From Psococerastis gibbosa (lineage: Eukaryota > Arthropoda > Insecta > Psocodea > Psocidae), in contig OZ020485.1 in assembly GCA_963971405.1 (NCBI GenBank), positions 47,365,469-47,429,468 of the forward strand: DNA of 64,000 nt. The letters are read 5' to 3'. The notes below the pieces were generated by a model. The model saw nothing but the letters and a program-made list of their open reading frames with translations. It searched no databases and was not told the origin of the DNA. This document shows positions 11,050 through 54,332 of the stretch, piece after piece. Numbering within the stretch: position 1 is the first letter of the stretch; each line of letters opens with the position of its first letter. A program made the position numbers and the translations under genes.

Positions 11050-11288
11050 GATTCGCAGCAACCTGCAGTTTGAGCGAGTTGAACGCTGTGCACCCAATTT
11101 ACTGTTCACCAAAATGCAGAATATAGGTACTTCAGTCAGTTCGGTGTCAGAATGCGGTTGGACCTTCGATTTAGAATGGTGAAATATTAGGTGTTCCCAA
11201 TCGGTCTATATGGTATGGACGTTGTTATAAGATATGAAGAATAGTATCAGTGCATTTGAAACGTGGATACATAGATGACTACTGCATA
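11050..11288 (+). mobile_element. LINE family B fragment, left of the hAT insertion
   Basis: CACCAAAATGCAGAATATAG, TGCGGTTGGACCTTCGATTT and AGTGCATTTGAAACGTGGAT parallel 2433-2620. It encodes the RT region before the GHVM block. The LINE continues at 15125 beyond the hAT transposon. Confidence 0.7.
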
Positions 11289-14200
11289 CAGTGCCGGGTT
11301 TGGCTATGGGGCACTGTGGGCCCGGGCCCCAGGGCCCCCACAAAAATGGGGCCCCCACAAAACGAAAAAATACAAATAAAAAATTGAAAAAATTAAAAAA
11401 AATCAAAACAGATAACTTTTTAAATTTTCGCGGGAAATTCGAACGCATCGTGGCATTAATGACTCATTTTTGATAAAAATTTAACAAAAAATGAAGTATG
11501 TCCACTCCTGCTCTGAAACCACGATTGTTTTGCTTCATTAAATACAAATTGAAAATTTGAAATCAAATTTCTAAATTGAAACTACTTTTATCAGCACTTT
11601 CTGGTTGGTATATTGTTAAGGTAAGTAGCATAAGTTAATTCTTATATTAGAGGCGGAAGTACCTAATAGTTGTTCTTTATAAGATAAGGTCCTTATTTTT
11701 CGTATTCTGCGCCCATTTACCACAATTCACAGAACGCATCAAAACTTTGTAAGCCTATTAATTTTAATACGAAATGTGCCCAGCCACGTGGTCGCCACAA
11801 AATCGAGCACGTTATAAATATAAAATTCATTGGTCTAAAATGTTATATGTCATAAAATGTTATATTATAAGACGCATGATTCGGAATTTTGAGATGTTTT
11901 ATACAAAAGGGGATAAAAAATAAAATGTATTCGATTTTGTGGTGACCACGTGGCTGCACATTTCATCTTAAGTAGGGCAATAGGAACAAGTGGACTAGAT
12001 AATTAGGCTCTGGCTAGTGAGTTCTGAAAAAACTAATTTATTACAATTTTTATTTTTGATTCCGTAGTGAAATAATGGATCGTCACAAGGGAAAACGCGA
12101 ATATGCAAGCGGCAGTGAAAAGCGGAAAATCGCAGCAGATAAAGAAAACAAAATTCAAGATGTTTTATCTAAAACGCGCCGTATAACGGATTTTGTAACA
12201 AAAATAGAGACGGGTCCATCTACTCCTAGTTCTACTTCTAATTTTGTTGAAATGATGAGTGGTGATTCTGATTTTCCTGCATCTTCTCAAGTTATTGCTA
12301 GCCCTACCCAAGAGGTAAGAGTTTGACTTTAATTACTTAATTAAGGTGACCGCAATCAAAAATTACCGACCCCACTCACCCCAGTAATTCTTATGGAATT
12401 AAAAATGGGGGACTCCTGTTAATTTACTGTATGAATTAAACCTACCTAAACTTGAGTCGGCCATGCCGAAAGGATTGTTTACAAAATTAATTACAACTGT
12501 AATTGTTTTACTTGTAGGCAGTAATTGATAACAATGACGAATCCGAAAATACTGCTGATGATGGATTTTGCAAAGAAAATGACGTGGGATTGTGGCCAGC
12601 AGTTCTTAGTCAACAACACATCGACTATTGGATCAAGAAAGGAAATTTGGAAACTCAGCATTGTAATGAAGATATTTTGAAAGAAAAAAGCTTGGGACAA
12701 GTAGATGCAGTGAAAAGAAGAAAATGCCATGCAAGTTTATTCCTTCGTCAAACTCAGGCAGGCAAGTCTATAAGCCGCTCTTGGTTATGTTTTTCACCTA
12801 GTACGGGGAAGCTATACTGCTTTTATTGTAAATTGCTCTGCAAATCAGCAAATCAGTTTTCAACTGAAGGGTTTGCTGACTGGAAGCATGCGTCTGAGCG
12901 TTTGAAAAGACATGAAACTACCGTAACGCATTTGCAAATAGTTTGCCAATTTAAGCATCTCTCAAACGAGGCAATGCGTATTGATCGTGAGTTGGCCACA
13001 CAAGTGAAGGAGAGCATTGCTTATTGGCGAAACGTTCTAAACAGATTGATTTCCGTCATAATATTTCTTTCTGGACGAGGACTTGCCTTTCGAGGGGACA
13101 ACGAAATTTTGGGATCAACCAAAAATGGCAATTATTTGGGAGTCCTTGAGCTAATTGCACAATATGATCCGTTTTTAGTAGGCCACTTAGAGAAGCATGG
13201 AAATCGTGGCAGTGGTAGTGGCGGCGTTAACTACCTATCTGCCCACATTTGCGAAGAATTAATTGCGCTGATGTCCACCAAAGTTAGCGATGAAATAATT
13301 AAACGCTTAAAAGCCTGCAAATATTATTCGGTTTCGGTAGATTCAACAACTGACGAAGGCCATATAGATCAAATGACTGTGATTGTCAGGTATCTAGAAG
13401 AAAGCACACCAAAGGAAAGATTTCTTAGTTTTATGCCAAACCAAGGCCATAAAGCTAAAGAATTATTTGATGGCCTCAACAAAGTTTTAAAAAAGTTCGG
13501 CCTGGATTTGAAAGATATTCGTGGGCAGTCGTATGACAATGCTTCCGCTATGAGTGGAGAATATAGTGGTCTACGCACTTTGGTGCTAAATGAGAATCCT
13601 TTGGCTTTATGGGTTCCATGTTTCAATCATTCCCTCAACTTAGTGGGCACAAAAGCGATGGACTCCTGCTCCCAATCGAAATTATTTTTTAGCTTTCTTG
13701 AGCAAATTTATGTATTTTTTACAAGTTCCACAGCTCGGTTCAACGTCCTTTCAAATGTTCTAAAAAGTGCTGCGAAGAAGTATGGCCACAACATACCAGT
13801 GCCCAAAAGAATCAGTTTAACCCGGTGGTCCTCAAGAGCGGAAGCTACTAATAGCCTAGTTTTGGGCTATAACGAAATACGAGAAGTCCTTAAAGATCTC
13901 TCCGAAGAAGATGTCCAAGCAAGTGGACTCTATTTGCAAATTACCACGTTGGAGATAGCAATTTACGCTGTTCTTTGGAACGATATACTGGCAAGGGTGA
14001 ATGCAGTAAACATCAATCTCCAGAATCCAAGAATCGACATTAATACTTCGATCAGTGTGATGGAGTCCCTTAAGATCTTCATTGGGGAATTTAGGGATTC
14101 TTTCCAAGAATATGAGAAAAAGGGTGTTGAATTGTGTGGGCACAATTCTTATAAATCGGAAACTTTGCGGAAGCGGATCCGAAATGTGAGGCTAAATCCT

Positions 14201-15116
14201 TTGGATTATGGGAAAACTGAGGAAGCTGAATTCAGTCATAGCGAGAAATTCCGAATCGAAAGTTTCATTCCCATAATTGACCAGTTTATGCAATCATTGG
14301 ATCGGAGAATTTCAGCATATGAAGACATAAATAGGAAATTTGGATTTTTACAATATTTAGAAAAAATAAGCCCTGATGATTTGAAAACTAGGGCAGAGAA
14401 CCTGGTGAGTTGTTACACAGGTGACTTGGACGGTAACTTGTACTTCGAGCTAGTACAGTTTCGTGAGTTTGTGAAATTATTTGTGATAGATGATGCACAA
14501 AAAAACAATATAATCGAAGAAAAACGTATCAGTTTTGAACGGTTCATGTACAATTTGATTTTAGAAAGAGGAGTAGCTGATAGCTTTCCCAATGTAGAAG
14601 TACTTTTGAAGATGTACTTAGTTATAATGAGTGGCAACATAAGCAGCGAGCGATCTTTTTCCGTACTAAAACACATAAAAAATCCTCGTCGCACCAGTTC
14701 TTCTGAAGCTCGGCTTAGCCATCTTTCAATGCTGAATATAAATCACGACATAGTGGCAGCGTTAAATTATGACGATATAATTGACAGTTTTGCTGTAATA
14801 AAGAGTCGAAGAGTGCATCTTTAAATAAATTAAAATTTTGTGTTTATAATTAGGTACCTATTAATTTATTCCTTTTAAAAATACACCGCAGTGTCTACAG
14901 CTTTAGTTGAGTAGCCCTTAGGCTTGTATTGTACTATTGACTTGACTTTATATTACTAAGAATCGCTTTTCTTTTTTATAATGATTTTGCAACCTGTGTC
15001 ACCATTTTATAATTTATTGTGGGATATTCGTCTAAGGGGATTAGAAATTTCTCCCCGAGAAAGGGCCCCCACATAATTCGGGCCCACGGGCCCCCACAAG
15101 CCCAAACCCGGCACTG
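11289..15116 (+). mobile_element. Complete hAT transposon (3828 bp, 8-bp TSD)
   Basis: The element begins CAGTGCCGGGTTTGG and ends CCAAACCCGGCACTG, a perfect 15-bp terminal inverted repeat. The target sequence ACTGCATA is duplicated exactly at 11281-11288 and 15117-15124; 8-bp duplications are the hallmark of hAT transposition. GGGCCCCCACA recurs in the same orientation near both ends (from 11332 and 11350; near 15063 and 15088), plausible transposase-binding repeats. It carries one spliced transposase gene (12075-14824). The host LINE is interrupted cleanly and resumes after the duplication. Intact ends, exact TSD and open coding sequence argue for a young, potentially active copy. Confidence 0.93.
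12075..14824 (+). CDS. hAT transposase, ZMYM1-like/TTF zinc finger type (2 exons)
   Basis: Join 12075-12314 and 12518-14824; the 203-bp intron has GTAAGA...TTGTAG borders in phase 0, giving about 848 residues. The N-terminus is charged and serine-rich. Residues ~160-230 form a TTF-type zinc finger (RSWLCFSPSTGKLYCFYCK, then WKHASERLKRHE). Next come a DUF4371-like region and the RNase H-like catalytic core: D355 in SVSVDSTTDEG, D420 in GQSYDNASAMSG, the CxxH-type PCFNHSLNL, then E791 in NISSERSFSVLKHIK within the hAT dimerisation domain. Its expected role is to bind the element's ends in the nucleus and catalyse cut-and-paste transposition. Domains and length fit hAT proteins often annotated as zinc finger MYM-type 1-like. 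No stops or frameshifts. An AATAAA overlaps the stop (14824-14829). Splicing is inferred from sequence. Confidence 0.92.
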
Positions 15117-15124
15117 ACTGCATA

Positions 15125-15395
15125 TATCCTGGAGGGTTCGTGTCCCTAATGCTGAGGCGAATTGATAAAGGAGCCAAGTAGCTGCTGACGGTTAAGAAAC
15201 GGAAACTAACATATTTGGGCCATGTGATGAAGAACGAAAAGTATTGCCTTCCGCATGTAATAATCCATGGGATGATAGAAAGACTGAGGGCTCCTGGCAG
15301 AAGAAGAACATCCAGGTTGAGAAACCTGTGGCAGTGGTTTGGCAAGATCACGACTTCTGTAATCGCCAATCTTAGATAGAAGAGGCATTGGAAGA
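15125..15395 (+). mobile_element. LINE family B 3' end, right of the hAT insertion
   Basis: Continues the LINE from 11288. Conceptual blocks LTVKKRKLTYLGHVM, RAPGRRRTSRLRNLW and WFGKITTS lead to ATCGCCAATCTTAGATAGAA at the 3' end. The same end block recurs at 41665-41715 and 49960. It is interrupted and decayed. Confidence 0.75.
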
Positions 15396-15452: not shown

Positions 15453-15637
15453 ATCACTGCGACCAGGAAACTGGGAACGGAACACTGTGACTGGGACACT
15501 GTGGCCGGAACACTGTGACCGGAACACTGTGACCGGGATACTGAGGCCGGAACACTGTGACCGGGACACTGAGGCCGGAACACTGTGACCGGGATACTGC
15601 TACCAGGACATTGCGACCAGGACACTGCGAACTGGAC
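15453..15637. repeat. GC-rich minisatellite, ~14-bp unit
   Basis: Degenerate tandem copies of GAACACTGTGACCG (variants with GGGACACTGAGGCC), about a dozen units. It gives repetitive open frames on both strands (for example NTVTG on plus), which are by-products and not genes. Confidence 0.85.
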
Positions 15638-36550: not shown

Positions 36551-36719
36551 TAACATACATACTGTATGTCAAAATATAAAAGTACATGTTTACTAAAAGA
36601 TGGGGCATTTCTTATGGCTCAACGATATACATTTCCAGTGTTTTCTACACTTATTAACCAGAAATATTAATTGTACACTAAAGATGAAGCATTGCGTACA
36701 TAACTATAAATATTGCACA

Positions 36720-36925
36720 CTTAACAAGAAACATTATTTGCGCACCAAAGTTGGAACATTACACACATAACCAGAAACATTGCACACTGGCCCTGAAACA
36801 TTGCGCACTTAACCAGAAACATTAATTGCGCACCAATGTCGAAACATTGCACTCTGACCCTGAAACATTGCAAACTGACCCTGAAACATTGCACATTTAA
36901 CCAGAAACATTGCTCACCGAACCTC
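36720..36925. repeat. Degenerate ~21-bp tandem repeat
   Basis: Repeats of CTGACCCTGAAACATTGCAC alternating with TAACCAGAAACATT and CACCAATGTCGAAACATTGC. The reverse strand gives an open CAMFQGQ-type repeat frame (36721-36942), which I regard as a by-product. Confidence 0.75.
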
Positions 36926-51194: not shown

Positions 51195-51293
51195 ATTAGA
51201 TGATATGGAAAAAACTGGGCTTGGCGGGATTCAAACCCACAATCTACGCCTAACCAGTGCGTCGTCTTAACCGCTGGACCACAAGCCAGTATT
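51195..51293 (-). repeat. tRNA-like SINE head
   Basis: The minus strand reads GGCTTGTGGTCCAGCGGTTA (A box) and GTGGGTTTGAATCCCGC (a pairing T arm with B box), ending CAAGCC which pairs with GGCTTG. It is cloverleaf-like, but the anticodon arm is imperfect and a relative with flanking similarity lies at 18465-18600, so a SINE is preferred over a tRNA gene. Confidence 0.5.
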
Positions 51294-53889: not shown

Positions 53890-54046
53890 CAAGGACGGAT
53901 CCTTGGGGGGGGGGGGCGGTCGCCCTAGATACTAGATAGAATGGACTTTTGTAGGAAATGAAGAGAATTTATTACTCAAGTAAGGGAAACGCGATATTTT
54001 TTAGGCCACCCCCCCCCCCCGAAAACTTTTTCTGAAACCGTCCCTG
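53890..54046. mobile_element. hAT-type MITE, 157 bp, perfect TSD GGTGAAGA
   Basis: CAAGGACGGATCC at the left and GAAACCGTCCCTG at the right (imperfect inverted ends). GGTGAAGA is at 53882-53889 and 54047-54054. A long G run follows the left end and a C run precedes the right. The interior ACTAGATAGAATGGACTTTT recalls the 49103 family. Confidence 0.78.
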
Positions 54047-54332
54047 GGTGAAGATGATGACTATAAAAGTAGCCAAGGCCACCGGCAGCCTCTACGAGTT
54101 CTACTGATTTCTCGCAGTAATTTAAATTGAAAGTAAAAAACCCAAATACAATGCACTACGTTCAGGATTCAGCCCCCCCGAAAACTTTTTCTGAAACCGT
54201 CCCTGGGTGAAGATGATGACTATAAAAGTAGCCAAGGCCACCGGCAGCCTCTACGAGTTCTACTGATTTCTCGCAGTAATTTAAATTGAATGTAAAAAAC
54301 CCAAATACAATGCACTACGTTCAGGATTCAGC
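54015..54332. repeat. Recent 159-bp tandem duplication
   Basis: 54015-54173 and 54174-54332 are identical except for about one base (GAAAGTAAAAAA versus GAATGTAAAAAA). Each unit holds the right end of the MITE, its target repeat GGTGAAGA and flanking DNA, so the duplication happened after MITE insertion. Confidence 0.85.

Follow-up and report, generated by a model that had tools for sequence, protein, structure and literature searches.

The window, a 64,000-nucleotide stretch of the Psococerastis gibbosa genome, contains a complete DNA transposon of the hAT superfamily inserted in a LINE remnant (Table 1). Both termini of the element carry CAGTGCCGGGTTTGG, reversed at the right end; the 15 bp are identical and base 16 differs. 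On either side lies the same 8-mer, ACTGCATA; two specified places would agree over 8 bp by chance with a probability of ~2e-5. The perfect inverted ends and the exact 8-bp duplication were both part of the original prediction, and both are borne out. The size and ends fall within the ranges given for hAT elements in PMC3942097, namely inverted ends of 10-25 bp and a length of 2.5-5 kb.

Table 1. Features of the hAT element and its insertion site (positions are those of the window).
Feature	Position	Strand	Remarks
LINE remnant, left half	11139..11288	+	tested stretch only
Left target-site duplication, ACTGCATA	11281..11288	.	
Complete hAT element	11289..15116	+	3828 bp; among 43 full-length copies read, 41 have this sequence
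Left terminal inverted repeat, CAGTGCCGGGTTTGG	11289..11303	+	5' 36-mer exact at 170 places
Imperfect palindrome	11764..11971	.	TTAA on both sides; upstream of start codon
Transposase exon 1 (predicted)	12075..12314	+	80 codons
Predicted intron	12315..12517	+	203 bp, GT...AG
Transposase exon 2	12518..14824	+	768 codons and stop; DUF4371, DDE residues, weak hAT dimerisation match
Marker site	14057..14057	+	C for G (V to L) at 13 genome places
Right terminal inverted repeat	15102..15116	-	3' 44-mer at 171 places, up to 2 mismatches
Right target-site duplication, ACTGCATA	15117..15124	.	
LINE remnant, right half	15125..15274	+	tested stretch only

The frame of the split repeat is, from its translation, presumably a LINE C-terminus. 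The element had been said to split this LINE cleanly, in such a way that the halves can be rejoined across the site. When the flanks were joined into a 300-nt empty site and searched against the genome, 40 of 3250 candidates were scored: the two halves in the window itself and 38 matches elsewhere. All 38 were continuous across the junction at 75-84% identity; this makes the host repeat an old one and, as predicted, the insertion clean.

The two exons, when joined, give 848 codons and a stop with no internal stop. The frame is thus open throughout, as had been claimed, while the splice itself is predicted from the sequence. The codons for D355 (13340-13342), D420 (13535-13537) and E791 (14648-14650) are present, as are those for C448xxH451 and W517, and all of these residues are invariant in a relative that is 24% identical. 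We take D355, D420 and E791 with the CxxH and W residues to be the catalytic set, an assignment based on Hermes; with that naming, the three catalytic residues of the original prediction are in place. The protein matches DUF4371 in Pfam (E 1e-19, 71.8 bits versus a cut-off of 32.1). Its match to the hAT dimerisation domain (PF05699; E 0.0037, 17.5 bits) is below the cut-off of 21.4, and the homologue in the same genome scores 33.3 bits with this domain. The presence of DUF4371 points to the Tip group, and the use of this domain as a Tip mark comes from BuT2 (PMC3942097) and from general background. A search of NCBIfam gave no match, and a sequence search of solved structures gave chance-level matches only, with no solved hAT structure among them. 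An AlphaFold2 single-sequence model of exon 2 alone was uninformative (pLDDT 34). Together, the ends, the duplications and the open frame support the structural integrity and the hAT identity of the element.

The searched assembly, one primary assembly of 409,210,807 bases, holds 170 exact occurrences of the 5' 36-mer, and allowing up to two mismatches adds none. With up to two mismatches, the 3' 44-mer has 171 occurrences, and with up to three a 200-bp core has 160; older copies past these limits escape the counts. The element is present on all ten chromosome-size contigs, and copies lie on both C20 and C21, by length X and Y. When the first 100 listed matches of each end were paired, 97 pairs resulted, 77 of which are exactly 3828 bp long. 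Nine others measure 3811-3845 bp (not 3828) and eight 780-3605 bp, and there is one each of 3694, 4043 and 13,622 bp. Each of the 77 pairs measuring 3828 bp has the exact core, as do 94 of the 100 listed 5' ends overall (92 of the 97 pairs and two of the three unpaired ends). The listings put exact matches first, and the cores were verified separately for these 100 ends. Two of the five pairs that lack the exact core are confirmed deletions, and the others measure 2182, 2296 and 3438 bp.

Several copies differ in structure. The lengths 3811 and 3845 are 3828 minus and plus exactly 17 bp, and a 13-bp direct repeat with a 17-bp period occupies 11836-11865 of the window, inside the palindrome; a 780-bp derivative lacks 17 bp there. 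The copy at C2:11153082-11166703, which was read over its 3' third only, carries an insertion of ~9.8 kb at the position corresponding to 12386/12387, inside the transposase intron. At C13:40400902-40404177, two DUF4371 stretches of the element lie 2.6 kb apart on the same strand in a tandem or nested arrangement.

The copies are nearly free of divergence. Of the full-length copies, 43 were read; 41 match the window's copy exactly over 3828 bp, and the remaining two each have one substitution. Thirty-nine of the 43 were the best-scoring ones (39 scored of 1068 candidates, with a query that included the window's own duplication) and understate divergence, while the other four were picked by place among the pairs of exactly 3828 bp. 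Further copies with >98% identity and different target duplications, by which the original prediction was to be checked, thus exist. A strict count over the 170 5' ends and these four copies found no substitution in 21,288 bases, with a 95% bound of 1.4e-4 per copy. A larger count that adds 96 cores and 97 3' ends listed as exact found none in 43,780 bases; its bound of 6.9e-5 comes from a set partly selected for exact matches. At an assumed mutation rate of 3e-9 per generation, these bounds correspond to ~47,000 (strict) and ~23,000 generations, and the age of the burst would be at most ~20,000-50,000 generations. Host heterozygosity is given as 0.64% (PMC12559846). Independently of any rate, pairwise divergence among the copies is at least 23-fold below host heterozygosity by the strict count, and 47-fold below it by the larger one. 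The recent arrival that had been predicted is therefore supported, and "recent" understates near-zero divergence.

Sequence variation does exist among the copies. The C variant at position 14057 is a sub-lineage that multiplied in its own right. The 13.6-kb copy has one further substitution, and a few more occur in a 1582-bp derivative. These variants bear on an alternative in which assembly created the sameness of the copies and hides a greater age of the element. Consensus errors do arise in identical repeats, and the HiFi library was amplified (ULI) (PMC12559846). However, the reads average ~9.4 kb (22.19 Gb in 2.36 million reads), so the 3.8-kb element fits inside one read, and the primary assembly has a QV of 60.4 (PMC12559846). 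Furthermore, C at 14057, lengths other than 3828 bp in the nine pairs close to that length, and private substitutions all survived assembly. An artefact is thus extremely unlikely.

A perfect 8-bp duplication, as expected of a hAT element, flanks 44 of the 45 copies read at both ends, and the sole exception fits an inversion. No 8-mer recurs among the 86 sites on chromosomes 1-4. The copies have spread by movement and not by duplication. The exception, at C1:33137541, has unlike flanks and no matching duplication. Its neighbour in the opposite orientation, at C1:33146770, shows an exactly complementary exchange of CAGCTAAA and CGGGTACT. An inversion of the intervening 5.4 kb predicts exactly these exchanged flanks, and the pair (C1:33137541-33150597) fits a 5.4-kb inversion between two copies or a misassembly, which between identical inverted copies would give the same flanks. 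The derivatives of 780 and 1582 bp are internal deletions, each with its own perfect duplication.

The target sites were compared over 86 sites, which are all paired copies on the four chromosomes (for 57 of them the 5' side alone was read, and one belongs to the inversion pair). The pattern nnTnnAnn occurs at 20 of the 86 sites versus 8.2 expected (P 1.4e-4; picked post hoc and uncorrected for the four patterns tried), and this preference is weak. An earlier consensus from the 39 best-scoring copies was discarded and replaced by the 86-site set because the query with the window's duplication had skewed it. The Buster family has the target consensus nnnTAnnn, and this pattern was rejected for the element at three of 86 sites versus 7.1 expected. 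TnnnnnnA was found at three versus 8.0 expected. The consensus of the Ac family is nTnnnnAn (PMC8961557), and this pattern was found at 13 of 86 sites versus 7.8 expected (P 0.046). The 2014 paper that names the Tip group states that the target preference of the group was not investigated (PMC3942097).

How would the element move? In hAT chemistry, the transposon is excised with hairpins formed on the flanking DNA and inserted at an 8-bp stagger. The 848-residue transposase would recognise the element by its 15-bp ends and by GC-rich subterminal repeats, cut it out and reinsert it with 8-bp duplications at weakly preferred nnTnnAnn sites. Copy number may have been raised by gap repair or by replication timing, and the deletion derivatives are in keeping with a gain through gap repair. 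The moving was probably done by the element's own transposase. Another model is that the copies were moved mainly by a different hAT transposase, for example that of a second family in the same genome. A genome scan for DUF4371 (150 scored of 476 candidates) assigned 99 matches to the element, 36 to this second family and 15 to others. A second DUF4371 source is therefore present, with 36 scored copies of equal score, 32 of them with a full 732-residue frame. However, the two transposases are only 24% identical, and the full-length 768-residue exon-2 frame of the element is open in 96 of its 99 scored copies, though a young burst would keep its frame for a while anyway. Movement by a foreign transposase is thus very unlikely. 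The same count answers a concern raised with the original prediction: no disabling changes shared by all copies were seen.

The second family looks young too, its sameness being judged from equal domain scores rather than DNA identity. Thus the original prediction that the element lies among otherwise decayed repeats holds for the split LINE but not for this family. One second-family copy was read (C2:3999400-4003700). The piece read showed no inverted ends, and a long TTAA-bounded palindrome follows directly after the stop codon. This palindrome is ~80% similar to that of the element over 69-88 bp and is very stable (-276 kcal/mol for 450 nt). The palindrome of the element may be a MITE-like passenger. 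An arm of it has 332 matches with no more than three mismatches in 26, 166 on each strand. Two arm patterns that fit both families occur 407 and 406 times, and controls once each. The surplus of 74-75, read from totals without placing every match, is what ~37 two-arm copies in the second family would give. At the similarity searched, these counts fit a palindrome confined to the two hAT families, and the passenger MITE would then be otherwise missing from the host; with a limit of three mismatches in 23-26 bases, palindrome copies more than ~13% diverged would be missed.

The findings converge on a model that an autonomous cut-and-paste hAT of the Tip type is in, or just past, an invasion of the Psococerastis gibbosa genome (probability roughly 0.88). 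The timing of the burst suggests that the element, judged on its sequence, may well be active at present. It probably arrived by horizontal transfer, because old copies are absent within the mismatch limits searched and because of the palindrome evidence. Could the burst have arisen within the host lineage instead? A vertically inherited, low-copy resident hAT might recently have escaped silencing, with one preserved master as the source of all present copies and no horizontal transfer. The data here come from one species, and 15 of the 150 scored DUF4371 matches belong to neither amplified family, both of which leave room for such a resident. However, no 5' end with one or two mismatches exists, and the arm counts leave almost nothing outside the two families (up to three mismatches in 23-26 bases). 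A resident source is therefore rather unlikely. Relatives were also sought at the protein level; of five candidate stretches in viral contigs and 25 in bacterial and archaeal ones, none was confirmed. The 15-bp end had 34 matches in viral contigs, which were taken as chance.

The arrival by horizontal transfer could tentatively be extended to a double invasion, a reading that is somewhat doubtful. In it, donors with a common TTAA-bounded palindromic MITE would have passed two Tip-type hATs to the host horizontally; the insertions of both would be mostly polymorphic, and a first inversion is perhaps visible. If this is true, the MITE passenger inside both elements is a fingerprint of the donor lineage.

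Hermes, hobo and other hATs of the Ac type share with the element the 8-bp duplications and a layout of D, D and E with CxxH and W. In contrast to them, its stronger target signal is nnTnnAnn and its weaker one nTnnnnAn. Likeness is also found in the Tip group, which includes BuT2 of Drosophila and Tip100 of morning glory and shares the 8-bp duplications and short inverted ends (PMC3942097). As in the element, DUF4371 of BuT2 precedes the hAT dimerisation region and deletion derivatives occur beside longer copies; however, BuT2 has 643 aa in five exons, compared with 848 aa in two predicted exons, and the BuT2 copies described there differ far more among themselves than those of the element (PMC3942097). 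Mariner-2_DF of the fire ant, a recent burst with many near-identical copies, has been called currently active and horizontally acquired (857 copies, pi 0.0051, 30 identical; PMC6307670). It belongs to another superfamily, and the present burst (~170 copies, pairwise divergence <2.8e-4) is younger by the pi and identical-copy measures reported for it (PMC6307670). In sea kraits, the DNA transposon Harbinger-Snek likewise multiplied explosively once it had been acquired horizontally, but it is of another superfamily, was transferred after a split 15-25 million years old, and its expansion is described as having slowed (PMC8437027).

A search of the literature by end sequence and topic, with Repbase and most subscription papers outside its scope, gave no description of the element among the matches listed. 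The end 15-mers were absent from literature text, and none of the 18 papers matched by a 10-mer was about transposons by title. Transposon invasions are mostly reconstructed long afterwards, whereas here study close to the start is possible. Since divergence is at least 23-fold below the host heterozygosity reported in PMC12559846, it becomes possible to test directly whether insertions are polymorphic, how silencing sets in and which donor was involved. The alternate-haplotype assembly of the same individual (GCA_963971355.1; PMC12559846) could already serve part of such tests. A further gain is target-site data for a hAT of the Tip type.

Other features were noted in the window and in the genome. 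ARAGORN found no tRNA on a piece of mtDNA. A minisatellite (14-bp unit, 12.4 copies) lies just outside the element at 15455-15627, a complex array at 36654-36923, and two copies of a 159-bp unit with 99% matches at 54014-54332. A gene for tRNA-Thr (anticodon GGT) occupies 51216-51288 on the minus strand. COX1 matches fell outside the mtDNA contig (C68) in 42 of 43 cases, and the nuclear genome thus holds many fragments of this mitochondrial gene. An example lies at C14:11085363-11086704, and one fragment is nearly complete in two adjacent pieces.
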